This document shows positions 3,933 to 46,600 of a stretch of DNA of 64,000 nucleotides, piece by piece. The translations under genes were made by a program, and so were the position numbers. Each line of letters begins with the position of its first letter. Position 1 is the stretch's first letter. The stretch is from Chrysaora quinquecirrha. Its lineage: Eukaryota > Cnidaria > Scyphozoa > Semaeostomeae > Pelagiidae. Location of the stretch: NCBI GenBank assembly GCA_014526335.1, contig JACTAT010000049.1, positions 2,044,258-2,108,257 of the forward strand, written 5' to 3'. The notes beneath the pieces are model-generated. The model was not told the origin of the DNA. It saw only the letters and a list, made by a program, of their open reading frames with translations, and ran no database searches.

Positions 3933-5340
3933 CTACAGATTAATTGTGATAAGGCTCTGACTTATTAAAACAGAGAAATTATACAATTTGGGTTCTAGAT
4001 CAGATCTGAGGACCTCTGTAAGGCTTGTAAGAAACCCATTGTACAAGAGGTAGCAGCAACTAGTTTTACCATCACGACCTGCTGGGCCACATTCTTGAAG
4101 GTATGATTCAACATTTTTGAAGGACCAAAATTTATGATCCTGTACGCTTGCTTGCAATCCACTCCTATTCCAAATGCAACTGTGGCAAGCAACACACGTA
4201 GGGAACTATCACTACTACCTATTTCCTTGAGAACATGTTCTTTAACAAAGGATGGCGTACCAGCATGAAACATTTCCACCAGGTGACAAAGGGGATCTTC
4301 ACAGCCACCTGCAAACAATTTTTTATCTAGCTTCAGCCGAAATGTCTTCCAGATAAGGGCACACTGATTGCATGTTTGACAGAAAATTATTGTTCGTTCT
4401 GTCTCCTTTCCCTTAGTTGCTAATTCAGAAAACATTGCTTCAAACTTTGTGTCATTCCCAACATACTTGGAATGAAACAACAGACTGTTCTTGAATGGGC
4501 TCTTCTTGATGACATGTGTTGATACATGGGCCAAATTGAGCACTGAAAATATAGTTGCCTTTGTTGCGCTTGAAGCCATTGCAGTGAATACAGCAATCTT
4601 CACTGATGAATCCAGAAATGATTGATTTCATCCATCTGACCATACCATTTTCTGAAGGCAGGCTTCTGTGATAAGCCAAGACCCCTGAAAAATAAAAAGA
4701 CTTACTGTTAACACAGCTGTTTCAGAAGTAGGATTGTTAAAAAACAAAACTGAAATCTTTGTCAATTTACTGAGAAGTAAAATAGTCCTTACCATTGTTC
4801 AATACAATGAGCCTTGCAAATGCAACACAAACACAGTTGTTGACCAATTTCTCTGAGGAAAGAAATTTCCCCCATCTGCTAGTGGCCAACATTGATTCTA
4901 GGGAAGTGAAGATGATGTTGTATGCTCCATCTCCATCTTCGATGTCTCCAAGAGCAAGACCTCTTCCGACTGATCTGCATAGATAGCTGCTGCATTGATT
5001 CCAATCTCCTTCAGTTTGGACACTTAGGATTGCAATTAAGGATTGCAACGGTGACACAACAAGTATACAACTCTGTAATGAAAGCTGCTCCATAAGGTAA
5101 TCAGCGACAAAAGGGAAGGGATGGTCTGGAAAATTTTAGAGACTTTCCATACCCAGTCGGTGCACAGAAATACAGGTTCTTCCCTTGGAAAAACTACTTC
5201 AGATCCTTCAGTTGATCTTTGTATATTTTCAACTCCATCTAACATTTTAACGAAGTCTAAGCTAAGCCTTCTATAAACTTCTCTTCGTTCCAAACAAGAT
5301 CGCTCGTAGCTGTAGTGGGCACATTCGCCATCTTGGGAAT
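3933..5340 (-). pseudogene. RecQ-family DNA helicase, decayed
   Basis: Superfamily 2 helicase motifs occur in order on the minus strand but in different frames. A Walker A segment, APTGYGKSL, lies near 5140. Motif Ia, VVSPLQSLI, is near 5040. The remains of the DEAH box, AHCIEQW, are near 4800, with the acidic DE lost. A GTAAGG donor follows at about 4796 and an acceptor ...ttttcag lies at about 4685. A motif III relative (FTAMASSATKATIF) is near 4590. Next come TIIFCQTCNQC and [13 protein letters not shown], and motif [14 protein letters not shown], near 4090, where the usual GRAGRDG has P for R. At least four frame changes and the damaged Walker B argue for a dead copy. In RecQ proteins this core unwinds DNA 3' to 5'. 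Here it is cargo of the TIR element. Confidence 0.8.
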
Positions 5341-10571: not shown

Positions 10572-13500
10572 AAAGTCAACCTACCCAGTAAATGAAAATG
10601 TATAGTCAATTACATACCTACGTTGCGTTCAACATTTATTTCTGATTTTCCTATCAGCCATCCATTTTTTGAAACATTGTTTTCACATATTTAGAAAAAT
10701 GATCCAAGAAGTTCTTGCTGCAAGCAACATGATGTGCTTGGTCAATGAAACCTGATCATCCAACGCCCTCGTTGAGTACCTCTTACGTCTTCATGCAAGG
10801 GTCAGTGAGGTCAGGGCTGTCAAAAGCAAGAACAAAACTGATGAGCTCGACTAATCTGGATGTACCTGAAAGGTAACAGAACATGTATCATGTTTGATAT
10901 TAATGCACTTCAACTAGGTACCTTAGAGCGGCTCAACAACTAAGAATATTGCAGCCAACATCTGGAAAGCTTTAGAATATGACATCGCTCTTTGATGTTT
11001 CGAGTTATACCCTACAATTATTATATTAAACTACATATGATTTTGTACAACTTGTAGGCTAGAGGGGCGTGTTTTGCAGTCTTTGGTCCTGAAGAAAATA
11101 GGACACTGAAAACAAGATTGCAGCCTCTTGCGAGAGAGAACAAGGTTAATATATTATATTTGTTATTCCCAGATTAACTAGCATTCATATTTATTCTTCC
11201 CCTTATTTAACTCATTTTGGTTATAACCTAGCACTAACCTATAACCTAGCTATAAACCCTTAGCCTCTAAATATTTCAATAAAGTGCCCATCAAAAAACA
11301 GTCGGAAGCTTTGGGTTCTGGCCTCCGTACCATTAAAAAGAGATTGGAGCCCTTGCCTTGAAAATTGATTAAAGATCCATCTAAAGGCCCAGCTAAACTA
11401 GGGTACATGTAATGCACGACATTGATGTCCCCTCTGTGTCTCTCAGTTTAACCACCTCAGAAACTTTGTAGCGTACGACAGAATTTATAGCAAGAGACAC
11501 ACAAATGTTTCTGGGAGGCAACAGAAACATTTCTTGTCTCGAGGACATTTAAATAACTTGGGAAATGTTGCTCACTTGTCACTCGCATGTTTAGTCCCCC
11601 TAGGAGACAGGCCGCATAAAGTGTCGTGTGCAATATGTCCCCTACTTTAGCAAGCCCTTGACTCCAAATTCATACTGCAAGTTTAATCGTTCAGAAAAGA
11701 ATTCAAGATAACTCGAATACATTGGATCGGTCGAAATTCAACACGATTTAACATTGAGTAAAATGGTGAAGCTAGGCTTCTGGTTGACAATTCATTTCAT
11801 AGAACTGCATTTCTATGTAGATGAAGGAACCATGGTTCTTTTGTATAGGAAGAAGAACATCGGAAAAACATTGACACAGCAAGTAATCCATTATGGCCAA
11901 GGTGCACAAACACTAATCACATGGTCTGATCATTTCAGGAGGAAATAGCATTACACCAGGTTCATCCACGTGAGTGTCTAGTATATCGTTTTTTGAGAGA
12001 TTTGCAGGACTTTGCTTTGCAATCCAGAAACGTCATAAAGCATTGCATCCGCAGAGCTCATACTTTAGCACAAATTTACGAAAAAATGAAATGGGAAAGC
12101 TCAACATCTGAAGGTTATCACACATGATACTTTGAATAAAGATGATGTGTTCTTCTTGTCAGCAAGTCAACGCAGGAAATATGCAAGAGAATGTTTATTT
12201 AAATTTACAGCATCTTGTTTTAAAATAATCATTTGGTCTTATCTACAAATTACTAAAACATATGAAATTGTTTTAAATTAATCTAATTCTGAAAATAAGT
12301 TGGAACTATAACATTCACCATAAGAAAATGTTCTCACAATTTTCTGATAGCAGATCCATTAGACCATTATTCTGAACAGATGCAGAATTTGGTTGAATTT
12401 TTTTTGTCCTTTTCTTTTTGCTTCAACAATCGTGGCTGCTCATTCTTACTTTTAGACTCCATTGTCTTTGGTATACTTCCTGACTGCCATTGCTTGGTGT
12501 AGGAAAATTATGACTTCAAAGAAAAAGAGGACATCAGCAGTGAAAAAACGTGAATAGGCAAAGGATTGAGCAAAATTAACAAAGCAAAAGGCTGGACAAT
12601 GATATGTGGAAAGACCCAGAAAGAGAAAGAAAAGGTTGAATTAAGTAATCAATAGCAAAGTCGAGGTTGTGAAGAGGTGGAAGGGGAATAATGTAACAAA
12701 GAAAAGTTACAAGGAAAGTTTAAAAAGGATCCTTCCATATTCCCCACCAGCATCAGCCATGTATCAATATGCATTGGTCAAGTGAACTGTGAATTTAGTT
12801 TTCGTAATCATACTTGGGTAGCTGTAGAGATGATGTACAGATGACGTGGTGATTTTTTTATAATTTTAAATCTGATATTTTTATGTACTCCAGGGATTGC
12901 TTTGTAAAGAGACAAAATTTACTCTAGTAACTGGCAGTTTAGTTATTACGCAAAGATGAACATCACTGTTAGTTCATTATACCTGAACGATGAATTGCTT
13001 CCAGACACACAAGAACTATTGAAATCTAAAGGCATATAAATTTGAATTACAATTCTTGTAGTCACCTTTATTATAAAAAGGCGACCATGTGCCAAATAAA
13101 AAGTGACAAAATTCGGGAAAGGATACATCCTACTCTGAAAGGCTCTTGTGGAAGACTACGAGAGATGCTGCCCCTTAAGTTACCACATGTTTTCTGTCTG
13201 TTACAGTAGTCTAAGTAATAAATATTAAACATACTAGTTGTCAGTCATTTCTTTTCTCTGGACTTAATGCATTTGACAAAGACATAGGCAGTGTTGTAGT
13301 ACTATGCCTTTTTCACTGCAGATGGGATTCTCCTCCCTCTTCATATATCTGTTGATGTTCTTCTGTTGATATGACTTTTCATAATCTCTGATGAATTGTG
13401 TTTACTTTGGTTGGTATTGGAGGTTTCTTAAAGAAACAATAGTCTTGCTAGCTTTTTAGAATTATCTTTTAGCAGGAAATTCAAAATTTAGATTTAGATT

Positions 13501-13584
13501 TCACATCCTCGTTAATCCGTTTTAACTCTGCTCTTATTGTTTCTCAGATAGCATCTTTTTGTTGGAAAGTGAATATTTGAAGTC
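10572..13584. other. Mostly non-coding stretch with one possible MITE
   Basis: No credible gene. Apart from the candidate element at 11392-11651, I see only AT-rich sequence and isolated short open frames. Confidence 0.5.
11392..11651. mobile_element. Candidate miniature inverted-repeat element, 260 bp
   Basis: The left end gctaaactagggtacatgta mirrors the right end, which reads gctaaagtaggggacatatt on the other strand. Both continue to a shared acgaca. The repeats are about 30 bp and imperfect. I do not see a clean target duplication, so the boundaries and class are uncertain. Confidence 0.4.
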
Positions 13585-14935
13585 ATGCCGAATGATAAGG
13601 TTTTTGAGCTTGACCCAAGAGTTTCTAAAAAAGGTTATATTATAACTTATAGCCAAGCTAATGCAGAAAAATTTCCGACTCGGCAATCTTTCACCAATGC
13701 TGTTTAAGAAGCCTTTTCTAAAGGAAAATCAAAGGTCGCTGTTAAGCAATGGGTTTGTTGCATTGAGAAACATCAGGTCTCTGGTTTTCACTACCATATA
13801 GCAATATTGTTCTCTAGAAATTAGTGATGGCTCTCTGCAAAGAAATATTTGATGGAGCGATATGGAAATTCGGTGCACTTTTCTCACTATAACTATTTTA
13901 GTGCTTTTCGTTATGTGACAAAGGAAGATGGTGATGCGTTACTTAGTCCTAGCCATCAAGACATTTCCTTGGGGCATTCACCGCAAACATCCAAATCCAG
14001 CAGGGCACGTATGAGGGGATCTTCTTTGAGAAGGAAATCAGATTCTGGTGTTGCAGAGCCCTCTGAATCACCTGCAGGTCCATGAAGGCATGGCAAACAT
14101 CAAAGGCTATCCAACTTAGACATTGCCGAATTCGATATAAAGGAGGGTATCAAAGATGACATTTACCTTTTGGCCATAGCAAAGGAGCAGAAAGATGTCA
14201 GTAAAGTGGACCTAGGAAATTTTGTTTTCAGCCACAACTAAAAAAGCAGGCAGGAGCTTATAGAGTGTGCATGGAATATGCAAAATGCACCTGAAACTAT
14301 TGCCCAAAGCAAGTTGTTAAGAATGGACATTGTCAATGAGGCGGCTTCAGGGGCCTGCTCTGGAGGCTGCAATGGTTTGTGGCTTATCTGTGCTAGGGAA
14401 TTATTAAAAAACAATGGTGTCAATAGCTATATTTTCGTAGATGCGATCAGAGAGTTGCTTTTGAAAGGCTGTGAAAAGCATCGAAACATAATGATTGTAG
14501 GACCTGCCAACTGTGCCAAAACTTTTCTCCTGCACCCATTGAAAGGGCTATTTTCTACGTTCACGAATTCTGCCAGCACAAGCCATGCATTGCTTGGTGC
14601 TGAAAGCGCAGACATCATTTTCTTGGATGATTTTCGATATTCTGCTGATATCTTGTCTCTGAAGGACATGCTTTTACCTTTGGAGAGGCAAACAATTCAT
14701 TTTGCGGCTCAACAGTCCAGCTATGCAAAGGATATTCTCTTCAATAGGAATACTCCTATATTTGCGACCAGCAAAGAACCAATCAGATACCCAGACCGGT
14801 ATCACACAACAGATGAAAGGGAGAATGAAATGATGGACAAAGGGTGGAAATACTTCAGATTCTATAGCCAGATTTGACCAAGTGGTACCAAGGTGCCAAC
14901 ACTGCTTTTCAGAGCTTGTATTGCTTGGAATGGAC
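13585..14935 (+). pseudogene. Rep-like protein: HUH nickase plus SF3 helicase, stop-riddled
   Basis: From the ATG at 13585 one frame runs to 14877 with no frameshift. It is interrupted by stop codons at 13705, 13822, 13825, 14083 and 14239 and ends at a TGA at 14875. The first third has the three marks of a single-tyrosine HUH nickase: a motif I-like YIITYSQ (codons 18-24), an HYH pair (codons 69-71) and YVTK (codons 110-113). The last third is a superfamily 3 helicase, with Walker A GPANCAKT at 14500-14523 and Walker B IIFLDD at 14614-14631. A polar-residue position of the motif C type (ATSKEP) follows. A +1 shift at 14873 exposes a CxxC pair that may have been a C-terminal zinc ribbon. This order is that of Rep proteins of CRESS-DNA viruses and related plasmids or transposons. 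In such replicons Rep nicks the origin and drives rolling-circle replication. No origin hairpin or capsid gene is visible nearby. Confidence 0.75.
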
Positions 14936-15482
14936 ATGTGGTCTATATACTCTTTAGTAGTAGTGACATTTGTTTAGTTGTCCTTGGTGGCCTAAATGTT
15001 AAAAACCTTGGTGGCCTAAATGCAAAAACTGGCCAGCATCATTTCTTGCCTTACACACAGAGTTATAAGGGAACAAAACAATACAGTAACATCATAGCAA
15101 GTTGTCTGTTCTGCCTCAGTTGATATGCTAGTTTGGGATGCTTGTTGGTCTTCCAGTTTTTCCTTTCGCCTGGAATATGCAGCTCTCTCAGCAGCCGAAG
15201 GAGGTGAAGAGAGGTTCCAAACCTGATGACCATGCAGTTTAATTTTCCTTCTACTATCTATCATATACTGCGCAGACACTCTTTAATTTTTAGTTTTAAA
15301 ACTGGTTAACTAGCCTCATGCGAGTCGCACTCTAAAAAGATCAATTCTGAAATTAATAACATTTTACCATATTGTGCACAGAGTAAGACCTATGAAACAG
15401 GCTTGATATAATATCCATATATTTTTATTCTTTGCATATATTCACATTATTTCCAAGAAAAACATTGAAAGTAGACTATGCC
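14936..15482. other. Non-coding stretch
   Basis: Between the Rep-like gene and the KDZ exon there is a short duplicated phrase (ccttggtggcctaaatg near 14980 and 15010) and no supportable gene. Confidence 0.5.
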
Positions 15483-15809
15483 TCATATTACCTGACACAT
15501 GCAGTCATGAACTGAGCCATGCATGAGGTTCAACGCAAATGTGACTTTTGCTGCATTCTGAGGATCTACTTTCTCTACCCACGTTTTGTATTTACAAGCA
15601 ATGTCCTGAAATATAAACCTTGCTTCCCTCTCGACTATATCTTTGCTGTGCAAAAAATGGTGATATGCAAACAGTTCACCCTGGAATATGTTGATGCCTT
15701 TCTGACCTACCTGATGAGAACATGAGACCTGTTTCATCAAGATCACCCTTCCTTTCAACTGCATTATAGCAGCAGCTTCCCAAACAGAGTTTCCACATTG
15801 ATTACCCAC
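15483..15809 (-). pseudogene. KDZ (Kyakuja-Dileera-Zisupton) transposase exon
   Basis: The 108-codon frame reads GNSVWEAA at its start, then CSHQVGQKGINIFQGELF, then FIFQDIACKYKTWV, then ALNLMHGSVHDCMCQ. This is the succession found in the catalytic half of KDZ transposases: an R/QG-N-M/I-F-x-GE block, a catalytic D in the D-I-x-CK-Y motif, and an MH..xH...CQ block. It ends at a consensus splice donor (CAG followed by gtaata at about 15485). The piece is therefore an exon rather than a complete gene. I could not find the next KDZ block (GEEVEQ) downstream, so the gene is fragmentary in this window. KDZ enzymes are DDE-type transposases often associated with 8-bp target duplications. Confidence 0.7.
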
Positions 15810-17600
15810 TTTCTATGAGACAACAATCTTAATCATTGACAAAAACACACCAACAATTTTAGATAAGCAAAACTAATAAGCCCGAGTCTTCCTATCAACA
15901 TACGTAGTGCATATGCTAACATAAACATTCTTCCTAAGGATTAATCCCCATTCTTTTGTTCACAGGAACAAACCCTGAGAAGAAACACTAAGCAAGAAAA
16001 TAGGCTTAATAATTGGAATTAAACTTTTGCTTATTCATTCTCCTTCGATTTTAAAGTTCTCCAGCTGTAGCTAGAGCATAGAAATGACCTTACTAGAATG
16101 GATTATAAATGTTGGAAGAACAGAGAAATATATCAATATACTTTATGTTCAAGAGTGAAGAAGTTTAGAAGAATACCTTACAACTGGTCTTCTGATACAG
16201 GTCACTTATATGATTGTCGACAACTGTATTGTTTGAGATGAACGTGACACTGAATAAGAATCCCTTGTGCACCTAGCATTGAGATAAATTTATAAATCTG
16301 ATATCATACAGGTGCAAGGATGGTATAAAGAATCCTCAAAATAAGGAGTTTTCCTGTTACATACAAACTCAAAAAAATGTTATCATCATTTTAGCAAGAA
16401 TAACAAGGATTTGTTCCCTCAAGGTTTCCTTATATTGAGATTCAAATCATTCAACATACTTAATCATAAGAGAATGGGTAATGACAAATTGGAAGGACTT
16501 GTAAGGTATGTCAAGGAACTCTTTCTGGATTCCGAAAAGCTTTTTACGTATAAATTTGCAGCCTTAGAAACATGAACAACACAAGAAATGAGGCAATTGT
16601 GAAGTCTCTCTTCCTTCCAGATATAGCTACATATTTTGAAAAAATATGCTTTGATTAACAAATTGTACTCTATTAGTTCATACCAAAGGAGAATCAAACC
16701 ATAATGGATTATCACCAATCAAAAAGGGTACAATCACAGCAACAAATTACAAGCTTCTTGGACCAGGAGCAGGTACGCCACATTCTTATTTTCTATAGAG
16801 TATATAATAAAAATAAATCAGTTCGTTTAAATTAGGTTTACTAAATGAGACAGTACAATAGAAAATTCATATAAATTTAAATTTTCATATTGAAAATATG
16901 AAAATTTATATGATCTGAGTCAGGTATCAAAGTCTAAACTTGTGTTTTTTTAATTGTTTATTTTAGTAAGGCTTGGTATTTTTTAAGCATTTAATCCTTG
17001 AGAAAGGTAATTTGATATTTAAAAACTTCTTTTAAAATAAATTCAACTTGATACCTGAGACATTTTGAAAATCTGCAAAGCATAATACAACAATAGCTAG
17101 TCTAATAACAAACACGATCACATACTTCAGAGCCTCTTTTGCCTGAGGTCTAACAGTGTGCATACTGTTGATTTTTCTTGCAAAATTTTTACTTGAAGGA
17201 TCCATTGCTGGAAAATTGCTTTGGAATAACCAGTTCTGGTCTGGCGAGTAGGTCATTTGTTTTTTTAAACAAAAATTGCAGAATTGGCATTGGAATGGTG
17301 GGAATCCGGCTTTCTTTTGCTGATATGGAAAGTTGTTTATTTTGAACTTAAGTGGACTGGACACAAGACTGCTGTATTTTACACCTCATCATGAATGTTC
17401 TTTACCAAATTTTTTTGTTATCTAATCTTGTTGTCTTTGAAAATGTCTCAGGTTAAGTTGACATCTGTGCTGTCATTAATTACTGTTTCTTTTAATTTTA
17501 TAAGGGACTTCATCCATTATTGATGGGTCATTGTAGCTCCATCTTCGCAACTTGTGCCTTACTTGTATGGCCCGTTTCCCAAGACTGCTTTGTCTTCATT
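15810..17600. other. Non-coding stretch
   Basis: No recognisable gene. A minus-strand open frame at 17032-17364 has a C-x2-C-x2-C cluster (CQFCNFC) but I cannot assign it. A small palindrome of about 20-bp arms lies at about 16865-16912. Confidence 0.45.
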
Positions 17601-22440: not shown

Positions 22441-25329
22441 TATCTTGAAAAAGCAGTCTGGTTCGCATAAATAACATCCATTTTCGTAATCAGCGTGAAA
22501 AACTGATCTAGAAAAATGGTGTCCCCTAAATTCCTCGCCAGGTGATACCTGGCTCACTCTCCGACTGGACTGTTAGCTTTTTACTAGATTGGTGTTAACC
22601 ATTCTGAAACTTTGTGAAATTGAAATTTCCGTGGGTGTGCTCTTTGACCATAAAATAGATTAGGCAAGTGCCTTGGCTATTCTTAGAAATGACTGTATTC
22701 TTAAAAGCAAACACTCCAATTCATTCTAAAAAGTTTATTTCACATAACAATTGTAATTCAAAGTATTCGACTTGTTGCCTAGACAAACAACACTTTTAGG
22801 GCAATAACCATGTCTCGCTAAAACTTTGCTCACCCGTTTTACTGTGCTCTGTGACTTTGATAGCTAATTCTTGGTTGATTTCGGCTCATTCAAAATGACT
22901 GTAGGTCGATCTGGTAAGCTCTGGGTCATTTTGGGTAATTCTTGCTCTTTTGGTTCATTTTGGCTGCTTCCATGTTTTAGTAATAGCTGCATCTTCAGTC
23001 GACTTTGGAATTGCATTACGAAATAAAGCATCAACTATGACTAGGCACAGGAAAGAGTAAGCATTTGGCCATCGTTTTCAGGAACAACTGTTAGACAAAG
23101 TTACTGGGTATTCTCTTTGACTGCTTTTATGGCGGTGATATCACTAATTCCCAGGGCAGTCACTTGTGACACATCAAGTGGATGGCAATGAACTTTATTC
23201 ACACCTGTCCTCTGCCCCATATTTCAAATTATCGCAAATCAAGTCCCTCAGATGTTGAAATTGACACAACCCTCATTGAGAAATTTTGTGGAACAAACTG
23301 GTGTATGTTCTAATCACAGAAAATCTGTGAAAATGTTTTCTAAACTCAACTGCTGGTCATCCTTTTTTTCTTGTTCCATTTCATGCTGAAATGGACAACA
23401 ATGATCTGGGTTTATAATAACAAAGATTGTCATCAAAAGTGCTAAAACATCTACAGTTTTCAGCTGATCTACATTGGCAAAACTTAAATCTGACTGACAT
23501 ATTTTAAATCTTGCCTCCAAAAAATCAGATAATTTGCACATTATAATTTTTTCTGCAAAAATTTCCGCACACTCAGCTTTCAGATTTGAACAGTGCAAAT
23601 TCATCACAAAAATGTCAGCTTTGACAATTCTTCTATGAACAAACAAAGCAATTATTAAAACTGTCTAGCATAATAGGGATATGCCCCAAGCAAAACAATC
23701 TCTGAAAAACATTGGCCACAAACATTGGGATAGATTTCTGGTCTTTGTTTAGGATTTGGCGATGAAAATATATTTTCCATCCAACAATCATCATCTCCGT
23801 TTCTCTATCATCCTCTTTTCTATTTCTTCCAGAAAACACTATGGGGGCCTTGTAACAAAGATTGGTGTCTCTTTGTTAAATATAGATCTTTAAAGAGATG
23901 TGATGTCCAAGCAGGTAGATGCCCCTTTGCCCCTCTGACAACAGCAACATATCTTTCCATGCCAAAACCTCAGATGTCCACACAAAATCGTTAAGAAATA
24001 TTCTCAGCACCGACCCAAGCATAGCTTGTCCTCGCAGGGTTGATTAATGTGTAGACTTGCCCCAAGTCTATTTCTTGATTTCCTTTTCCTAGGATCCTAG
24101 ATTCCATGTCAGAACAAAGGAGAGTGCCAGAGAAATAGACTTGTACCTTTCCCACAGTCATGAATAATTAATGAGATTATCCTTTTTGATTTTGAAGATG
24201 TTGTTTGTTGGCAGTGCTCTTAGAAGTCTAGAATTAGCCATTCAGCGCTGGAAAATGACAAAAGATTTTCGTTTTCGTTTTTGGCTTCTCCTTCCTGTTG
24301 TTACCTTAATTACCATTGACTCTGGCCTACAAATAAATTTGAAATATTAACTGAATCATTTTATTTTACGCAGATAAAAGAAAACACCATTATGAGAATG
24401 ATTGTGTAAAGAAGAAACTATGAATACGAGTTACCAGCTATCCTTGCTAATTCTTTTCCCCTCTTTGTCTGTGAAATTGAAAATCAAATCCCTGTCAATG
24501 TTAAACATCTTTGCAACTTTAGCTTAAAATATTCCAAATCTTTCTCCTTTTTCTCTTTGAAATTCCTACAAAAAATAGTCAATAAAACAGTTATTAAAAT
24601 ATAATATTAAGGCAGAATGGATGTTTTTAACATTGACAGCTCTATGTAGTTTATACAGCAAATCTAGTCAGACAGTAAGGTATTTGTTCTTAATTGCATG
24701 TTCATTGGTGTAAAAAAACATTTTCAGTTTGATGTTGGTTGTTTAAAGTGTAGCTCAAAAATGGAACAAACCAACCTGTTGTTCTTCATAAGGTGCAACA
24801 GTAATTGTTTTTACCATACCTGAGAAAAGAGCAATGCATGAACAAAAAAGAATAATTTTGGAATTCAATATGGCTGGTTTAAAATAGGAAGCAAAATGGG
24901 ACAATTGGAAAGAATAAGTTAGGATTATTAAAAAAAAATTATGTTAAACTATTAATGAACGAATGTTACTATTTTCCAAGCATTCATTGTATAGAAATGT
25001 CATGAAACATATTCAAACTAGCACAGTACTATCACAAATCTAAAAAAGAAATAGACAAATACTAGCCCTTGCATCAAGAACCTCTGCCTCAAGAACCTCA
25101 GCCTCAAAGACCTCTATCTGAAGGACGTCCCCCTCAATGACCTCTGCCTCTCCACGTAGCTCCTAGTTGGTTATCTTTAGTACTTGTTCTTTGTCCTAAT
25201 CCAGAGTCTCTTTTTCTACTGCCAATCCCAGTTCTGTTCCGCCGATTCTGTGTAAAGTCCCTAGTCCACAATTATGTTACTAAGTTTCAAATTAGTCAAT
25301 GTACGGCAGTTGTCTTTCTTTATTGTCTG
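22441..25329. other. Non-coding stretch with unassigned ORFs
   Basis: No recognisable gene. Minus-strand open frames at 23633-23839 and 23314-23646 lie head to tail and could be parts of one decayed gene. They contain FLEARFKICQSDLSF and HCCPFQHEMEQE, which I cannot place. A T/G-rich phrase (ggctcattttgg-like) recurs at 22870-22990. Confidence 0.45.
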
Positions 25330-28003: not shown

Positions 28004-28915
28004 TTGCATAAAGCAAGCGCCGTTATTGATGTTCTTAAGAAGACAGTAACATTTTTGGATAAAAATACTGTTTTCTTTGCAAACGGTGAAACACCTCCGC
28101 TAGTCGCAGATGTTAGAGCCGAAAATACACAGGTCATAGATGCGCATAGTGAAGCAGTCATTCCAGCTTACCTCACAAGCTTCCCTGCAACACCTGTTAT
28201 AGGTCTAATTGAAGCTACGCCTAAGCTTTCTGATCAATATCATCTGCTTGCCGCAGCTTCTGTTTCTTCACCTGATACTGATGGCAACGTATCATTTCGC
28301 CTGCTTAACCCGACAGATAGCCCTGTAATTTTACATAAAGGAACATCTATAGGACAGTTCCTTTGAAATGGATAACGATGACGTAATCATGCCACTCGAG
28401 TCAGGTTCTTCTGCATCTATTGACAAGACTTCAGCGTCCAGTTCTACTGGCCTAGACAATCTACTCTCTGCATTCAAATCACTGCCAAGCCCAGCTCTGT
28501 CTGCTGCTCAGAATCATCAACTGAATGACCTCCTTAAGAGCTACGAGGATATTTTCGCCTCTTCCAATCTTGACTTGGGTCACATGACGGTTATTCAAAA
28601 CGAAATAGACACGGGTGACGCTAGGCCCATTAAGCAGCCACCGTACAGAGTATGTCAAGCGCAACATGCTGAAATAGAGAAGCATATCGCAAACATGTTA
28701 GAGCAGAACTTAATTCATGTCTCCAGTAGCCCTTGGAGTTCCCCTGTTGTTTTGGTCAAAAAGACGGACGGGACAACTCAATTCTGCGTAGATTACAGGA
28801 AATTAAATGTGGTCACGCGTAAGGATAGTTTTTAGCTGGCAAGAATTGATGACGCCCTAGACTCTCTTGCTGGCTCTAAGTATTTTACAACACTTTATTT
28901 GCAATCTGGTATTTA
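28004..28915 (+). pseudogene. Ty3/gypsy protease-RT linker and RT N-terminus
   Basis: 28004-28366 is the segment between protease and RT (AENTQVIDAHSEAVIPAYL, NPTDSPVILHKGTSIGQF). A one-base shift at about 28350 leads into 28368-28835, which has the RT entry blocks IDTGDARPIKQPPYR, SSPWSSPVVLVKKTDG and FCVDYRKLNVVT. A TAG lies at 28833-28835. Past it the frame reads RIDDALDSLAG up to YLQSG near 28910. The sequence then jumps to IVFSSTFDEHLSRL. The RT centre with the YxDD box is therefore deleted. Confidence 0.88.
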
Positions 28916-29256
28916 TTTGCAATTGTATTTTCTTCAACGTTTGATGAACATCTGTCACGTCTTAGCCTTGTTTTCTACCGCTTAAGAGACCCAAACTTGA
29001 AATTCTGTAAACTTTCTTGGTTTTGTTGTTTCGTTTGATGGCGTTCTGCCTGACATAGATAAACTAGAAGCAGTTAAATCTTTTCCAGTTCCAAAGTCTG
29101 TAAATTCGTAGCTTTCTAGGACTTTGTAATTATTACCGCCGTTTTGTTGATGCTTTTGCAAGGATAGCATCACCGCTAAATCAACTCACGCGAAAAGACA
29201 CTAGTTTTATTTGGAGTCCAGACTGCCAGTCTGCTTTTGCTGAACTAAAACGTAGT

Positions 29257-29739
29257 TTGTGTTCGCCACCCCTTTTGGCATACCAAGATTTAGGCCAACC
29301 GTTTCACCTGCATGCTGACGCAAGTCAGTTTTCTCTAGGCTACATCTTAGGCCAAAATATCAACGGTAAAGAAACTGTTATTGCTTATGGTGGTCGCGAA
29401 TTAAACAAGGCAGAAACACATTATAGCACGACAGAACGCCAAGCTCTAGCTGTAGTAGATGGTATCAAGTGCTATCAGCGATATTTATCAGGTGCTAAAT
29501 TTTATGTTCACACCAATCACAGTAGTCTCTCTTGGCTCGTGCGTATTAAGGACCCTACTGGTCGACTTGCATGTTGGGCTTTGCAACTGCAACAATATGA
29601 CTTCGAAATAATTAATCACTCTGGCTCAGCTAACGCAAACGCCGACGTGCTGTCCCGTCGTACTTATCCTGTTGATGCTCTTTCGTCTGCTGACATCACT
29701 GAGATTTCGCTACCTGTGACAGTTTTAGATCAGCTGTGA
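29257..29739 (+). pseudogene. Ty3/gypsy RNase H domain
   Basis: The frame has PFHLHADASQFSLGYIL (first RNase H Asp), then GGRELNKAETHYSTTERQAL (Glu), then FYVHTNHSSLSWL, where the usual second Asp in TDH is N. It ends with a tether (SGSANANADVLSRR). This is the standard RNase H of Ty3-like pol. It follows the RT remnant and precedes the integrase zinc finger. Confidence 0.88.
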
Positions 29740-29959
29740 CAGTAATTTGTTCGATATTATTTGCTATCTAGAAACCAGGCGGTTGCCTTCAGACAACTCA
29801 CTAACTCGTGCTCTGCTACTGTCTATTGATTCGTATTATCTTGATGACCATGGAATTCTTTGTCATCTGTGAACCCATGGTGGTCGATGTGTTAAATCAT
29901 TGTTTACTCAGGTTGTTATTCCAGCTTCTCTTCGCTACGAAATCCTTGTCGCATGGCAT

Positions 29960-30636
29960 GATGATGTCACTGCAGATCATCTCAGTGTTTCTAAGACATG
30001 AATAAATTCGCTCTCGCTATTGTTGGCACAGTATGTATAAGGACATTAAGCATTGGTGCAAGTCATGCATTGATTGCTCCACTTTTGCCTATTCCGTTGG
30101 ATGGTGCGTTCGATCGCGTTGCAATGGACATTCTCAGTCCGTTTTCAGTTACTCATGATGGTAATCACTACATCATCGTCTTCTCCAATTACTATACTCG
30201 TTGGCCTGAAGCTTTTGCTATTCCTTCGACCAAAGCTACTCGCATCCCTAAGTTGATTGTCGACGAAATTGTCTCTTGCCATGGTGCACCTCGCACACTT
30301 TTGTCAGATCGAGGATCCAACTTTCTCTCTGCAATCGTCAAGGAAGTCTGCTCCATCATCAACACTCGTCGACTTCACACGACCTCTTATCATCTGCAAA
30401 CCGACGGTCTTGTCGAGCATTTTAATGCAACGTTAGCAGAAGGTCTCTCGATGTATGTGAGCACTAATCAAAAGGATTGGGACAGACAACTTGCTTTAAT
30501 TTTATTCGCCTACCGTATGTCACCAAATGCAATGACAGGAGAGTCTCCGATTTATCTTCTTTACGGCCGAGAGCCACGTCTACCGATCGATGCAACTTTA
30601 TTACTCCCAGATTCGAATTTGTCCTCGTTCTTATGA
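29960..30636 (+). pseudogene. Ty3/gypsy integrase
   Basis: The zinc-binding H2C2 module is recognisable at about 29965-30080, in a frame different from the core (SRYCWHSMYKDIKHWCKSC). The catalytic core at 30098-30560 has MDILSPF (Asp), LSDRGSNFLS (Asp) and LVEHFNATL (Glu), so the DDE triad is kept. The post-core segment FAYRMSPNAMTGESPIYLLY is typical of Ty3/gypsy. It ends at a stop at 30634-30636 without a chromodomain. Confidence 0.88.
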
Positions 30637-31617: not shown

Positions 31618-32625
31618 ATGTCGAGTCAAAGTCCTTGGTCAACTAGACCATCAAGAGATTCATCTCTTACAAATGATATATTATTACGATTGACTAAGGA
31701 TCAACTTAAACGCCGCTGTAACAGGTATGGTTTGCGTGCTACTGGTACAAAGGAACATTGGTCTCACTAATAATGTCCTATATGCATTCAAGAAACAATC
31801 ACCAGGATGAGAACTCGTCAGACAATGAATCGATAGCTGAGTCTTCAACAGGACAGACAGCCAACCCTTTCCCGATTGAAGAATTAAGAGCCCTGATCAG
31901 AGAAGAAATTGGAAACAGCAGTAAAAATCAGCACCTAATTCCACACAGCCCCAACCGCAGATCAACATTCTTTCTCCAGCCTCTGATGCTAGAAGTCCAC
32001 AGCCTGCCGCTGCTCCTATTTCAACCGTACAATCACGCCAAATTACCAGCTTGAGCCAACAACAACAAAAAGGTAACTCTTCCACTATTATGTTGCCCAC
32101 ACCAAAGGGCTGTTTACTGCCTTAATCTGTTAAAATATTTAAATCAATTCAAAAAAAATTCTCCCAGTATCCTTATATGATCCAAGCCTGAATCCAAACC
32201 AATTTACCCTAACGCTTAATCCTGGTGATGGTAGTAACCCAAATATCACAGTTGCTTCCCAAGGGTGTGTGAAACAAAAGATGAATAGTATCTCCACATG
32301 GTTTGAGGCATGGAATATTTTCGTACAGACAATGGTGCAATTCCACCCTGAGCTAGCACTGGAATTACTGTCGTACCAAGAGTCCATTTGCAGTTTCCAA
32401 AGGTTGTACCCCCTCAGTGCTTGGTTGAAGTACGACACAACCTTCCACATGAACATTGGCCTGAACAAAGAGCTATCTTGGTTTCGGACAGACAAATATG
32501 CGTTTAACTGTTTCTTTCGTTGTGCCTATAGCATTTCTGCTTCGCCTCAAACCCCCCAAACCCAAACAAGTTCTTGTTTTCGTTGCTTCTCACCCAACCA
32601 TATCTCCAGCCGATGTCGGCAAACA
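31618..32625 (+). pseudogene. SAP-domain / gag-like protein, frameshifted
   Basis: An ATG at 31618 opens a frame with a SAP-like helix pair (ILLRLTKDQLKRRCNRYGL, then TGTKEH). A one-base loss near 31758 shifts it into 31758-32054, which is Ser/Gln-rich and acidic (NPFPIEELRALIREEIGN). Another shift leads to a gag-like helical block at 32269-32540 (STWFEAWNIFVQTMVQFHPE, LKYDTTFHMNIG). A CCHC zinc knuckle, CFRCFSPNHISSRC, ends it at about 32578-32620. This domain order suggests the nucleocapsid protein of a retroelement, probably of the DIRS or related tyrosine-recombinase type. That class is inference. The 54-bp minisatellite begins directly after the knuckle. Confidence 0.6.
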
Positions 32626-32649
32626 TACCCCCAAGCCCATCCAATTTTA

Positions 32650-33728
32650 TTGAGGTTACCTGTAGTTACATTACATATAGGGACGTCACATATAGGGACG
32701 GTAAAGAGGTTACCTATAGTTACGTTACATGTAGGGACGTAACATATATGGAAGTTACATATAGGGACGGTAGAGAGGTAACCTATAGTTACCTTACATA
32801 TAGGGACGTCACATATAGGGACGGTAGAGAGGTAACCTATAGTTACCTTACATATAGGGACGTCACATATAGGGACGGTAAAGAGGTTACCTATAGTTAC
32901 GTTACATGTAGGGACGTAACATATATGGAAGTTACATATAGGGACGGTAGAGAGGTAACCTATAGTTACCTTACATATAGGGACGTCACATATAGGGACG
33001 GTAGAGAGGTAACCTATAGTTACCTTACATATAGGGACGTCACATATGGGGACGGTAGAGAAGTAACCAATAGTTACCTTACATATAGGGAAGTTACATA
33101 TAGGGACGGTAGAGAGGTAACCTATAGTTACGTTACATATAGGGACGTTACATATAGGGACGGTAGAGAGGTTACCTGTAGTTACGTTACATATAGGGAC
33201 GTCACATATAGGGACGGTAGAGAGGTTACCTATAGTTACGTTACATATAGGGACGTAACATATAGGGACGTTACATATAGGGACGGTAGAGAGGTAACCT
33301 ATAGTTACCTTACAAAAAGGGATGTTACATATAGGGACGGTAGAGAAGTAACCTATGGTTACGTTACATATAGGGACGTCACATATAGGGACAGTAGAGT
33401 GGTTACCTATAGTTACGTTACATATAGGGACGTAACATATAGGGACGTTACATATAGGGACGGTAGAGAGGTAACCTATAGTTACCTTACATATAGAGAC
33501 GTCACATATAGGGACGGTAGAGAGGTAACCTATAGTTACGTTACATATAGGGACGTTACATAAAGGGACGGTAGTGAGGTTACGTATTATGTAACATATA
33601 GGGACGTTACATATAGGGACGGTAGGGAGGAAACCTATAGTTATGTTACATATAGGGACGTTAGATATAGGGACGGTAGAGAGGTAACCTATAGTTACGT
33701 AACATATAGGGACGTTACATACAGGTTT
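32650..33728 (+). repeat. 54-bp minisatellite array, forward arm
   Basis: About 19 units built on gttacatatagggacggtag followed by agaggtaacctatagttac. Many carry an additional 18-base sub-unit. Because the period is a multiple of three, very long frames (over 300 codons) stay open on both strands, with motifs such as TYRDVTYRDGREV. These are repeat artefacts. The same unit recurs inverted at 34259-34850 and in a short run at 35479-35545. Confidence 0.95.
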
Positions 33729-34006
33729 CACTTTATTTGCAAGAGGGTGGCAGTATGACAAGTTGCAGCATATAGTATTATACCAATATAATATTGGTTT
33801 GAATGTTCTCCAATGCATCGACATTCGACATTAAAATAACAAAAAACATTTATCATATAGAAGATCAAACACTTAAATGGAACAGTAACTAAAACAGTAT
33901 ATAGATAACAGCTTGTTATAGCTTACAGGCAAATACTGAACCTGAGATAACAATGTGCAAATGTAGCTAATGTCAGCAAAGAAGTGTTAGTCAAAAACGT
34001 ATCAAG

Positions 34007-36945: not shown

Positions 36946-37855
36946 AAAGTATAGACTGCTTTTAAAGATTTTTAAATCCCAAAAAACCCCACACATGCTT
37001 TCTTATGATTATTTTTTCATAATCAGAAGAAAGCATTCTTGATTACATCTATGATACTGTAAATGATGAATCCAACATGCCCTTGCCTAAATTAAGGTGC
37101 CTATTCTGTATGCACAAACAGTATATTCTAAAAATTTACAAACTTTTGGCATCAGTTTCATTGGATACACCTGGTATGTCAAATATGGTGGAGCTATTCT
37201 AAAAGCATCATTATTGATGTTTTCATATGAACTCCCAAATATATTTCTAAAATAATCACAAAGGGTATTTGAATTGTTCATTTATGGTAGACAAAATCTG
37301 ACAAAAAGGGCAAGTTTACTGGTTGCAATAATCGATTTTTTGCTATCACTTAACAAAGTATATAATTGCCTTTGCTATCCAGAGCAATAAGATCCTTTTT
37401 GTTTAGGTTATACAGTATGGTTTAGACTGATAACGAAAATTACAGTTAATCCCATTAAGCTTAATCACAATAGTGCCCTAAATAGGTACTTTAGTTGCAG
37501 GGTTTGATATATATTCGTAATCTAACTTCCTTTACCAGAGGAGACATGCCCTAGTTCCAGAAATGTTTTACTTTGCTCAATTTAACATTAGAATTCGATT
37601 CTTATTCACTGAAAAATTGAAATATTCCCCTTTATGCCCTGAAGATGTTGCCAGGCAAATTTGTCACCAGCAAGAAACCTCACTGAGTTAAGATCAAGCC
37701 CCACGTCAAGGGTTTGCCCATTGCTTGAGTTTCCCTTTTTAAGCAGAAGGAACCCCACCAGTTCTTTGGCAACATTAAAACTGGGGGAAATCAAACTGCA
37801 ACCATTTTTTTTTTTAATGTTAAATGCTATTGACAACTGTAAAGTTGGTAGAATT
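36946..37855. other. Non-coding stretch
   Basis: Sequence between the kinase and the 68-bp minisatellite. I see no gene or repeat of note. Confidence 0.5.
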
Positions 37856-37861
37856 TAATTG

Positions 37862-38345
37862 CAAACTAATATCCAAAGATAAAGATATAATGCAATGACA
37901 GCAGCATTCAGTGATAACATTGTCGATCGAAGAGTAATATCCAAAGATAAAGATATAATGCAATGAAGCAGCATCCAGTGATAACATTGTCGATCGAAGA
38001 GCAATATCCAAAGATAAAGATATAATGCAATGACAGCAGCATCCAGTGATAACATTGTCGATCGAAGAGCAATATCCAAAGATAAAGATATAATGCAATG
38101 ACAGCAGCATCCAGTGATAACATTGTCGATCGAAGAGTAATATCCAAAGATAAAGATATAATGCAATGATAGCAGCATCCAGTGATAACGTTGTCGATTG
38201 AAGAGTAGTATCCAAAGATAAAGATATAATACAATGACAGCAGCATCCAGTGATAACATTGTCGATCGAAGAGTAATATCCAAAGATAAAGATATAATTC
38301 AATGACAGCAGCATCCAGTGATAACATTGTCAATTGAAGAGTAAT
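37862..38345. repeat. 68-bp minisatellite, about 7 copies
   Basis: The unit contains atatccaaagataaagatat, gcaatgacagcagcatccag and cattgtcgatcgaagag. Copies are over 95 percent alike, with one unit 1-2 bases shorter. The three minus-strand frames that stay open through it are repeat artefacts. Confidence 0.95.
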
Positions 38346-39255
38346 GTTCTTCTTCAGCAGCAACGATAAAGACAAGGGATGATGGTAGAATTCAGCAACA
38401 GTTCTTCTTCAGCAGCAACGATAAAGACAAGGGAATGATGGGAGAATTCAGCAACAGTTCTTCTTCAGCAGCAACGATAAAGACAAGGGATGATGGTAGA
38501 ATTCAGCAACAGTTCTTCTTCAGCAGCAACGATAAAGACAAGGGAATCAGGAGAAAATTCAGCAACAGTTCTTCTTCAGCAGCAACGATAAAGACAGGGG
38601 ATGATGGTAGAATTCAGCAACAGTTCATCTTCAGCAGCAACGATAAAGACAAGGGATGATGGTAAAATTCAGCAACAGTTTTTCTTCAGCAGCAACAATA
38701 AAGACAAGGGATGATGGTAGAATTCAGCAACAGTTCTTCTTCAGCAGCAACTATAAAGACAAGGGACTGAGGAGAAAATTCAGCAACAGTTCTTCTTCAG
38801 CAGCAACGATAAAGACAAGGGAATGAGGAGAAAATTCAGCAACAGTTCTTCTTCAGCAGCAACGATAAAGACAAGGGATGATGGTAGAATTCAGCAACAG
38901 TTCTTCTTCAGCAGCAATTATAAAGACAAGGGATGATGGTCGAATTCAGCAACAGTTCTTCTTCAGCAGCAACAATAAAGACAAGGGATGATGGTAGAAT
39001 TCAGCAACAGTTCTTCTTCAGCAGCAACGATAAAGACAAGGGATGATGGTAAAATTCAGCAACAGTTCTTCTTCAGCAGCAACGATAAAGACAAGGGATG
39101 ATGGTAAAATTCAGCAACAGTTCTTCTTCAGCAGCAACGATAAAGACAAGGGAATGAGGAGAAAATTCAGCAACAGTTCTTCTTCAGCAGCAACGATAAA
39201 GACAAGGGGAGGATGGTAAAATTCAGCAACAGTTCTTCTTCAGCAGCAATGATAA
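38346..39255. repeat. 55-bp minisatellite, about 16 copies
   Basis: The unit contains ttcagcaacagttcttcttc, agcagcaacgataaagacaa and gggatgatggtagaa. It follows the 68-bp array directly. Some units carry gaggagaa in place of gatggtagaa. Confidence 0.95.
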
Positions 39256-42135: not shown

Positions 42136-45100
42136 CAGTGGCGGAAATTGTGGGGGTTTGGGGGGGACAACTGCCCCCCAAACACAAATCTGTCGGAAAA
42201 TATGTGTTTTTGTCGGAAATTTTGAAGTTTTGTAAGTGAGAAGATTTTCTTGTTCACTACCAGTGATCTAAGGAAATTCGGAGGACGGGTCTTTCGGGTC
42301 TTTCTCAAAATAATTAGTCACAAAGGACAAAGCAATAAAAGCAATTAACAACCCAAGAATTTAGATTTTGATGGACTGCTTAGACAGACCAGACCCGATT
42401 TCATCAGTCTACTATTGTGGTTTAGTTTTCTTTTGTTTTGTTAAGGATTATTTTTGTTATCTTTATGGGTAATTAGTGTCGACGCCTACGTCAGAATGTC
42501 AATGGGTGTTGACATTTTAACTTCCTCGCCTAAGGTTCTTACATGGAAATAATGTCATATTCATCAGATTGTTCTGACTCAGCCTTTCATTCTACATGTG
42601 TCTGTCCGTGCTCAGTTGTTGGTCTGTTCTGTTCTTCGTTCTCAAAAGTAAAAAAGTTATATAATATACTAGGATATAATATAATGTAGAATGCCTCCTA
42701 AGCCAAAACGACAAAAAGTTCAATGCTTGGAGTGCTCAAGGACCTTCGACAGTGACTTTACATCACGACATAATGAGCGTTACCATAAAATAATGCTCAA
42801 TGAGAGAAAGCACATCAGGTACAAGATTGCTGGAGCCCCGGCGAACCCATTCTAGGTTGGTTTACGATTTTTATTTGTTTGTGTTTGAGTTTTCTAACTA
42901 TTTTTTTATTGCATTTTACATACGTTAGTAATATAAGAAACTCATTTGTATAAGAAATCTGTACCCGAAAAAAACAACTTTGTAAGAAACTAGCCCCTAG
43001 AATAGAAAACCGTAGTATACCTATCATCAGCTGCAAAGTAAAGAAACTGATAGAGATGGAAAACTGATAGAGACTGGTAGAGACGGTATGAGAAGGTAAT
43101 TTGACACTAGCTTGTGTGATACTTGTAAAGGCAAGTTAATCGTAAACAAAGTCCTTTCTTCTTCAGGTAAAAATTCAACCAGCCCTCTTAGTACCACCAG
43201 AGAAACTTTTGGCACCAGTATGTAGCTCTGAAAACAGAAAGCCTGAGCACGAGTTGTCTGAAAAACAGGATGTGCCTTTGAACAGTGAATCGGGGAATGT
43301 CAAAGAGAAAGAGGATAATACGCAAGAAGAGTTGAAACCATCTTCTCAAGAAAACAGCATGGTAGTATCGGTAAGAGGTACTTTGGTGTTTCAGTAATGA
43401 CTCAAGCCCATTACAACTTGTGAGAATTGCCTATAAATAGTGGCATAACTGTGACGAAAATTTTCGGGGTCTCTAGAACCTTGAAGACCTTGAAGCCTTA
43501 TACATAATTCTCGTAAGAAGTAGAGCGTAAAAAACAAATTTGTGCCGTGTGCCCTTTTTGGTCGGTTGGAAGTGCGCATGTACCAACCAGTGCATTACAC
43601 TTCTGAGATAATGAAATATATTTGTTGCATATACAAATGTAGTACAAATGTCGTTTCAGGAAAATATTTCTGCAGGGAAACATCAAGAGAAAAATTTCAA
43701 GCCACTAGTAAATACCAATGAGAAGTTCCCAACCGACCCTGCCTTGTACGAATATCGAGAAATTCAAAAAAATGAGAAGTTGCGAGAAGAACTGTGCCGT
43801 TTAGGACCTTGTCAGCCACATGAGTACGATCGTCAAGCCTTTGAAAGTAAGCTGGATAAATCAACTCGATCATTTCAAGACACGTGGTACCATGATGCCA
43901 AAAAGGGTGAAAGGAAAACTTCCAAAAACAAAAGAGACTGGCTTGTCTATTCTCCAAGGAAGGGGCGTATGTTTTGCTTTTGGTGTATGCTGTTTATTCC
44001 AGAAACGACACCATACTATGAAGATAACTGGACACAAGTTGGAGTTTCGAACTGGAAGAAGGGAATTCAGAAGATTAAAGAGCACGAGACTGCAGATATT
44101 CATTTAGAAGCAGCATTCAAATACTCCTACTTTATATCAGGACAAAACATCAAAACTTGCTTTTCCAAGAGTGCAAAATTGTTTATCAGAGAAATTATTG
44201 ATCTTGTTGCAAAGTATGACCTGGCACTCGCAAGACAATTAAAGGATAATCCAAAGTATGGTAATTACCTTACTCCAGCTTCCCAGAATGAAATGATTTA
44301 CAGTCTTGCAGAGGTTTTTGAGAAGGGAAATCAAAGAAGAAATCAAGGAAGCGAAGTTTCTTGCAATTTTAATAGATGAGTCTTCGGACGTGTCAAAGAC
44401 GGAGCAAGTCAGCTTTGTCTTTCGTTATGCTTTGCACGGTGAAATCTTGGAAACATTTCTCACTTATAAAGATGTGGTTTCAACCACAGGCAAATCTTTA
44501 TTTGACACCTTGCAGAACCTGCTTGATGAAAGTGATCTCAACATCAAAGATATAAGAGGTTTTGATACAGATGGAGCTGCGAATATGCTTGGTGAATACC
44601 GAGGGTTAAAATCCAGAGTTGGCGAGGTCAACCCTCTTGCAAAGAACGTACACTGTGCATGCCATGTTATCAACTTGATACTAGTACAGGCTTGTACAGG
44701 AAACGTTAAAATTAAAGTATTTTTTGCCAACTTGAAGGAATTATATGCATTTTCTGAGGCAAGTCCGAAGCGTCACGACCACCTCAAAAGAATTCAAAAA
44801 GAAATGTCCATCACACCTGTAAGGTCTTTGAAACGACATGCGAGCACGAGATGGGAATCACATAGCAAAGTTTTAGCAGATGTGAAAGCAACATACCCTG
44901 CAATTATAACAATGCTTGAAGAAGTCATTCAAGAAGAAAATTCTGCTGATGTTTAAACGAAAGCAAATGGACTTCTTAATTTTGCCAAAGAATTCCGAAT
45001 TCACGTTGATGACGGTGGTTTTTAGCGAAATACTGGAAATCACCAATATACTAAGTAAATCACTTCAAGCAAATGAAATTGATCTGAGTGAAGCATTTCT

Positions 45101-46237
45101 GCAAATAGACTCATGCATAAAAGAATTACAAGCATTAAGAAGTGATGCAAAGCTTGAAGGTTTTATTCAAAAAGCCACAGCACTCGCAAAGGAAGCAGAT
45201 ACGAAAACATGGTTTGCCGAAAAGAGAAACCGTAAAAGAAAGCGACATTTTGACGAATTGGCATCTGATGAAAACCCAACCGACCCAAAAGTGGCCTTCA
45301 AGAAAGATGTGTACTTTTTCGCATTGGATATCATAAAACAGCAGATGTCGGACCGGTTTGACAAACATAGAGACCTGCTTGCATCATTCCAATGCTTGAC
45401 GCCTGACAGTCTTCTTAATAAGACAGCAGCTGAAAACAAGGGCAGATTGGAAATAATATTGAGGGAGTATGGAACAAGAAATGGTTCCGGGGATATTTGT
45501 GATGAAGATGATGAAATTTACCGCGAATATTCCATTTTTCAAACGAGATTTAAGGAAAGTAATGGTGTTCAAATTCCAAAGAAAGTTCGTTATGCTGTTC
45601 AAAAGAAGAAGCGGAAGATATTTAAATGGAAAGAGCAGCAATGTCTTTGCAAGTTGCCAAAGGATGTTTTCGAATTTCTATTCACATCAAAGCTCTACAA
45701 AACACTACCAAACCTTTACAAATTGTATCAGCTCTTTTTGACCATACCTGTAACAACAGCTGAAACAGAGCGGTCATTTTCCAAGCTCAAGCTCATCAAA
45801 ACTCACCAGAGATCAACAATGAAACATCAGCGAACAAATGACCTGGCTGTTATATCCATCGAACGACAAAGATCTATTCAGATTGGCCAGGCCCTTGATA
45901 TATTTGCATCGATGAAAGATAGAAGGAAAGATTTCATTTTATAGAGGCAAATGAAAAGAACAGCATACATAATACTAGCGTTTTTTCTTTTGTTCATATG
46001 AAATATTTTCGATATTGCGCAGTCACTTAAATGTATCTTTGCTTGTCACACATGCAACAATCAAATTGAACAATGGTTCAATTATTATTTCTGACTGGGT
46101 GCATTGTTCTTTTATTGCGTGTTAGGATAGGTCGAAAGCAAATAGCAGTTTTGCCACGTTACCTTTTTTACCAGAAAATTTTGTCGGAAAAATTCAGCTA
46201 TTTGCCCCCCCAAGAAATTTTTGAATTTCCGCCACTG
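42136..46237 (+). mobile_element. hAT transposon, full length, 8-bp target duplication
   Basis: The ends are cagtggcggaaatt on the left (42136) and its complement aatttccgccactg on the right (46237). G-rich sub-terminal stretches and gtcggaaa motifs lie at both ends. The octamer catctctc occurs immediately outside each end (42128-42135 and 46238-46245), a perfect hAT target duplication. The 4.1-kb element carries one multi-exon transposase gene on the plus strand. It inserted into the reading frame of a Ulp1-type protease. Confidence 0.95.
42690..45944 (+). pseudogene. hAT transposase (ZMYM/DUF4371 type)
   Basis: A candidate first exon at about 42690-42831 (ATG) has a zinc-finger pattern, CLECSRTF...H. 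An Asp/Glu-rich exon spans 43167-43370, with an AG acceptor before it and GTAAGA after it. The main exon starts at 43660 after tcgtttcag. It has a TTF-type zinc finger near the start (GRMFCFWCMLF, H near ETADIH). The DDE/RNase H-like core follows (AILIDESSDVSK, GFDTDGAANM, NVHCACHVINL). The hAT C-terminal dimerisation domain ends it (YQLFLTIPVTTAETERSFS). The frame shifts near 44325 (a T run) and near 44990, and a TAA lies at 44954-44956, so this copy is inactive. Phases of the first two exons do not join cleanly, so exon 1 is tentative. Confidence 0.88.
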
Positions 46238-46245
46238 CATCTCTC

Positions 46246-46600
46246 TAACATCATCCATGTCGAAAATGGTGAAGTCTGCTGCTGTATAATTTGCAAAAGA
46301 AATCAACCAGCAAATGGCAAAAAGACCACATTGAGTTGATTCATCTTGTCCATTGAAAGGAAGAACTTTTTCAGTCAAGGTAAGAGCAACAGTGTAGTTG
46401 TTGTTAAACAAAGCCTGCTTGAGATTCTTAACTTCAGACTCATGGTTAAGGCCGAAAGAATCACAAATGGAGAATGTTGATGAACTGAAATCAACTAAGA
46501 AAACCCACCAATGCTGATCAACATTTGCGGGAAACAAAATTCTTTTCAGGGAAGGAGGCAGAAATTTTTTGAAACCTTTCTTTGATAATGAGTAGAACAA
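46246..46600 (-). pseudogene. Ulp1/SENP-type cysteine protease (C48), split by hAT
   Basis: The frame contains NVDQHWWVFLVDF (catalytic His), SICDSFG (Asp) and ESTQCGLFAICWL (oxyanion Gln and nucleophile Cys). This is the full His-Asp-Gln-Cys set of the Ulp1/adenain clan, which cuts SUMO-like tags or viral polyproteins. N-terminal residues before the His are few, so an upstream exon or truncation is likely. The last codons, DMDDVREM, lie in the hAT target duplication. Ulp1 domains of this size are common as passengers in cnidarian and other animal transposons, so it may itself belong to an element I could not delimit. Confidence 0.8.

Follow-up and report, generated by a model that had tools for sequence, protein, structure and literature searches.

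Replication proteins (Reps) with a papillomavirus-E1-like superfamily 3 (SF3) helicase have been described for the RepE1 cressviruses, among them Cress4479 and Cress4414, in a preprint (PMC11071296) whose definition of Rep includes a nicking-nuclease-like domain. The names of these viruses suggest genomes of 3.5-4.5 kb, and according to the preprint's sections on this group sea anemone genomes contain apparent RepE1 integrations, some of them adjoining retrotransposon-like sequence. The replication proteins of papillomaviruses and polyomaviruses have lost the HUH signature motifs, as a passage of PMC6668415 puts it, and Replitrons (HUH transposons, Craig 2023) are characterized in the relevant part of a plant review (PMC10741241) by short terminal direct repeats and by hosts from green algae to ferns. 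Here we analyze a 64,000-nt stretch of the scyphozoan Chrysaora quinquecirrha (GenBank assembly GCA_014526335.1, contig JACTAT010000049.1, positions 2,044,258 to 2,108,257 of the forward strand), referred to as the window, in which positions 13585 to 14938 hold the remains of a Rep gene. This relic is a genuine, dead Rep gene of the mobile type, and we regard it as probably a chromosomal copy derived from small rolling-circle replicons like those of the RepE1 cressviruses.

A Rep gene interrupted by stop codons

A profile built from 44 intact relatives was compared with all six-frame open pieces of at least 15 aa in the window. Five pieces (13573-14874) match the profile, colinear, on the same strand and in the one order found in intact family proteins, and because the profile E-values, the colinearity and the single strand agree, the match is real and far beyond chance. 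An earlier note on this DNA had described a CRESS-type HUH/SF3 Rep frame that runs from 13585 to 14877 and contains five stops, with a motif I-like segment, HYH, YxxK, Walker A and Walker B in that order. The positions of the stops and of the motifs bear out this description, and the profile matches support the assignment to a Rep gene that is now dead. All nine of the active-site residues inspected are kept in the window copy. The closest intact relative, P0148, shares 81% identity with the relic over 440 columns and is the reference for the deletions in the following list.

13585-13704 (+): open piece 1, start of the HUH domain, with motif I-like YIITYSQA at 13636-13659 (profile E 5.3e-10 for the piece 13573-13704)
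13705-13707 (+): internal stop TAA
13708-13821 (+): open piece 2, HUH domain with HYH at 13789-13797 (profile E 1.6e-11; Pfam REP_ORF2-G2P E 0.011, below cut-off)
13822-13827 (+): adjacent internal stops TAG (13822) and TGA (13825)
13828-14082 (+): open piece 3, end of the HUH domain with the YxxK motif III (YVTK, 13912-13923), and linker (profile E 2.8e-16)
13882-13887 (+): 9-nt in-frame deletion near 13885 (tblastn with P0148; three gap columns before 13885, that is, three residues absent)
14083-14085 (+): internal stop TGA, within the linker
14086-14238 (+): open piece 4, linker or start of the helicase part (profile E 2.7e-12)
14239-14241 (+): internal stop TAA
14242-14874 (+): open piece 5, 211 aa, SF3 helicase domain with Walker A at 14500-14523 and Walker B at 14614-14631 (profile E 1.2e-85; 32 relatives matched; Pfam PPV_E1_C E 3.6e-4, below cut-off)
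14875-14878 (+): net 11-nt frame-shifting deletion relative to P0148 (frames around the site and coordinates of the two P0148 matches)
14879-14938 (+): conserved C-terminus (CxxCF...LLGM), displaced into the +1 frame (E 0.037 to profile columns 437-454)

Deletions and loss of constraint

The TGA at 14875-14877, where the frame now ends, is not the gene's natural terminus, because the C-terminal CxxCF segment resumes in the +1 frame at 14879-14938, where it shares 70% identity with residues 439-458 of P0148 (E 1.7e-4). The earlier note found no indel over 1.29 kb because its reading stopped at the broken end of the frame; the in-frame and the frame-shifting deletion contradict that statement and, with it, the proposal that the gene decayed through stops alone. 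Under random mutation, about 110-162 substitutions (transition weight 1-6) would be needed to generate five stops, and the chance of two indels or fewer would then be 0.14-0.36 at 0.03 indels per substitution, 0.01-0.09 at 0.05, and at most 0.001 at 0.1. In human pseudogenes the ratio is about 0.035; a literature search for an indel-per-substitution figure returned no paper. Indels may be fewer than expected in the relic.

The pattern of replacements indicates that the copy has been free of constraint. Of 76 near-invariant columns, defined by a uniformity of at least 95% among 160 relatives, the window copy changes 16 and P0148 keeps 73, and the most changed by any of 161 relatives is 11. Differences between the window copy and P0148 affect 13 of the 76 conserved columns and 57 of 349 others, a ratio of 1.05, compared with a median of 0.06 and a maximum of 0.28 in 61 intact pairs of 75-90% identity (from 67 rows). 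Because of this difference in ratio, the bulk of the divergence probably arose in the window copy without constraint, and the tree branches agree (0.20-0.23 for the window piece versus 0.03-0.04 for P0148). The relic seems to have decayed by ordinary mutation, including small deletions, with no special chemical process.

The family of intact relatives

The relatives of the relic form a large family of intact proteins, mostly of 440-530 aa, in which an HUH nuclease at the N-terminus is followed by an SF3 helicase at the C-terminus. Motif III of the family has one Y with K, and the HUH active-site residues are kept. At E<=0.01, Pfam PPV_E1_C is found in 14 of the 44 relatives, passing its cut-off in P0026, and Parvo_NS1 in 15. 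The predicted fold combines a geminivirus-type Rep nuclease with a helicase like that of adeno-associated virus (AAV) Rep and papillomavirus E1, the single-domain nuclease chains among the fold matches being geminivirus and vientovirus Reps. Sequence comparison with solved structures is weak; fold comparison is not. Three of the relatives bear an organism name, in each case that of a coral (Paramuricea clavata, Acropora millepora). No PHROGs match fell below E 0.19; the INPHARED phage records contained no match to P0033, and the prokaryotic species genomes no relative at the sensitivity used.

Helitrons carry an SF1-type helicase behind a two-tyrosine HUH domain and so differ from this family, in which the helicase is SF3-type by Pfam and fold and motif III has a single Y with K. 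Parvovirus NS1 and AAV Rep differ in that the listed nuclease chains are geminivirus and vientovirus Reps, and a Rep gene is all that is seen at this locus, with neither a parvovirus capsid nor hairpin ends in evidence. Papillomavirus E1 is set apart by the loss of the HUH motifs reported in the passage of PMC6668415 cited above, since they are kept here. Replitrons share with the relic an HUH endonuclease within a eukaryotic genome, but the named relatives are from corals, whereas the hosts given in the Replitron part of the plant-focused PMC10741241 run from green algae to ferns. The closest likeness is to the RepE1 cressviruses: the relic pieces, the family fold and the active-site columns all display an HUH nuclease, with its HUH, Y and K motifs, fused to an SF3 helicase. 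That helicase is E1-like by Pfam, while the criterion given in the preprint's account of the group was BLASTp against E1 (PMC11071296). Judged by that description, the family of the relic has already been reported in outline, from sea anemones; PMC11071296, as far as its sections on these Reps go, is the sole description of such a Rep that we recognized in the literature, although work in subscription journals may exist.

Membership of the relic in a multi-copy family is supported by a second relic in the window.

23678-24050 (-): second Rep-family relic, covering the helicase's C-terminal half (profile E-values 1.3e-9 and 2.7e-8)

Read from 24050 to 23678, it shifts frame near 24003 and meets an in-frame stop at 23878-23876. 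It is more divergent than the first: its best tblastn match, P0022, shares 47% identity with it across 110 columns (E 1e-21).

Viral or transposon origin

The reading that we consider probable, a dead chromosomal copy of a Rep from small rolling-circle replicons, draws on contig sizes and on the described viruses. Among 120 listed relatives, 41 are on contigs of 3.5-5.0 kb compared with two on 5.0-6.0 kb, as would suit a circular replicon of about that length, and P0148 itself is on a contig of 4,002 bp. The pertinent sections of PMC11071296 report RepE1 cressviruses of similar size that carry capsid genes, and sea anemone data in which they appear to be integrated in high copy. By analogy with the Reps of cressviruses and parvoviruses, the one-tyrosine HUH nuclease and SF3 helicase of the intact relatives would nick a replication origin, and the protein would remain covalently attached to the 5' end of the DNA while unwinding it for rolling-circle replication. 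A copy would have entered the host genome beside other mobile-element relics, perhaps when a nicked or linear replicon was ligated by accident into a broken chromosome, and would then have decayed without constraint through the substitutions estimated above, the five stops and the two deletions.

Several observations weigh against a viral source. No capsid family was found in the 10 scanned of the 47 flanking open pieces (at least 45 aa), so that nothing viral except the Rep is shown at the locus, unlike the RepE1 cressviruses. A pattern search of 2.9 million IMG/VR viral contigs found no relative within its sensitivity, and the 50 best matches in a viral structure library share only 11-17% identity. 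Contig size is a weak proxy for a free replicon, as high-copy chromosomal elements also assemble at unit length, and a 4-5-kb unit leaves unexplained a second heap of 26 of the 120 relatives at 1.5-2.5 kb, which are perhaps transcripts. The short P0148 branch suits a slow genomic source better than a fast single-stranded DNA (ssDNA) virus. Kinship with the RepE1 cressviruses is taken from the preprint's description of them rather than from sequence comparison with Cress4479 or other members.

The strongest competitor, which we think unlikely but well short of negligible, is that the relic descends from a true eukaryotic rolling-circle transposon, vertically inherited, with the HUH/SF3 Rep as transposase and no need of a capsid. 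It would account for the abundance, on long contigs, of relatives whose full-length frame is open (46 of 161 at >=20 kb; 90% clusters of up to 259 member sequences), although the member counts may stem from many assemblies of one genus. At the 76 near-invariant columns the long-contig relatives have on average 1.67 changes, little more than the 1.08 of those on unit-length contigs, and P0148 has a branch far shorter than that of the window copy, as if the source lineage evolved at host speed under selection. On the side of the viral reading, relatives on contigs of 3.5-5.5 kb (50 rows) and >=20 kb (46 rows) are interleaved in the tree, with slight clustering of the latter (34 of 500 shuffles as low; two rows without a size value were counted as short).

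The presence of two relics within one 64-kb window also suits a transposon, but comparison of their flanks found nothing in common. Replitrons have direct terminal repeats of 5-11 bp and target duplications of 2-8 bp. Between 12201-13585 and 14936-16000 there is no exact direct or inverted repeat of at least 11 bp, and the 9- and 10-bp matches are at shuffle level; flank matches of 16-21 nt are inexact and lack a chance control. The geminivirus-type nonanucleotide NANTATTAC is absent from both strands of 11001-17500. The capsid genes that stand beside such Reps in the preprint's genome descriptions (PMC11071296) also argue against a transposon. A broader version of this idea, which we think equally unlikely, is that animals, among which corals are the hosts named so far, carry a large, vertically inherited rolling-circle transposon lineage whose transposase is an HUH/SF3 Rep, catalytically intact and common to the lineage and the RepE1 cressviruses. 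Such elements and viruses would repeatedly interconvert, and the window copy would be a dead member rather than a one-off viral integration.

The window copy itself is ordinary fossil DNA, and the interest lies in the family. It pairs an HUH active site with a parvovirus- and papillomavirus-like helicase, as would be expected of a form connecting the CRESS viruses to the small DNA tumour viruses. Whether its copies are viral integrations or a rolling-circle transposon bears on how often ssDNA replicons turn into genomic parasites of animals.

Origin of the stop codons

The earlier note had suggested a special decay mechanism, cytosine deamination of a methylated element, on the ground that each stop could arise by one C-to-T change. 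This is formally true and uninformative, because TAA, TAG and TGA are each one C-to-T step from CAA, CAG and CGA, which covers any stop; with the codon make-up of the relic, C-to-T changes would account for 10-34% of new stops under random mutation. The residue of P0148 is C-to-T compatible at one of the five internal stop columns. Across the 160-161 intact relatives in each column, the fraction with a compatible residue is 0, 0.02, 0.06, 0.15 and 0.86, so one column does fit in most relatives and the remaining four do not, and the G-to-A-compatible share is at most 0.01 in all five. Animal methylation is mostly at CpG and could therefore have touched only the two TGA stops; the other three (TAA, TAA, TAG) are not derivable from CpG. 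The window is depleted in CpG (observed/expected 0.59) with an excess of TpG/CpA (1.21), which counts in favour of deamination, but this window-wide depletion does not explain the stops of the relic, and the two deletions count against it. That deamination produced the stops is very improbable, and the comparison of stop columns with relatives rules it out as the main cause of decay.

A domesticated gene, another option in the earlier note, or a recoded one, with stops that are read through or spliced around, is the least credible alternative: the 211-aa open helicase piece and the retained active-site residues would suit it, but it is unsupported because the changes in the copy ignore conservation (the ratio of 1.05 and the 16 altered near-invariant residues exceed those of all intact pairs and relatives compared), the C-terminus is out of frame, and the stops replace single residues in homologous coding sequence with no insert between the pieces.

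Neighbouring elements

Just past the Rep relic, at 14982-15028 (+), a 23-bp unit (CCTTGGTGGCCTAAATG...) occurs in two copies 24 bp apart that are 91% identical. About 550 bp from the 3' end of the relic lies a relic of a KDZ (Kyakuja-Dileera-Zisupton) transposase at 15486-15812 (-) (Pfam PF18758, E 1.9e-7). Further along, a hAT-type transposase occupies 43648-45944 (+) in three overlapping frames (DUF4371 E 1e-11, Dimer_Tnp_hAT E 6.5e-13; nothing in Pfam matches the first frame), and pieces resembling a long terminal repeat (LTR) retrotransposon were recognized by eye at 28368-30636 (+), where the integrase core family rve matches 29998-30636 just below its cut-off (E 2.8e-7) and 28368-28835 has no Pfam match. 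An open reading frame (ORF) at 62747-63688 (-), with no Pfam match at E<=0.001, has an acidic N-terminus and a GKSGCGKT P-loop and by eye resembles the packaging ATPases of large virus-like elements. Other pieces are a Ulp1-type protease at 46112-46600 (-) (Peptidase_C48, E 8e-5) and a Helicase_C match at 3995-4603 (-) (E 1e-8) that is RecQ-like by eye. Long ORFs with repeated peptide units at 32269-33824 and 37820-38375 are probably minisatellites.
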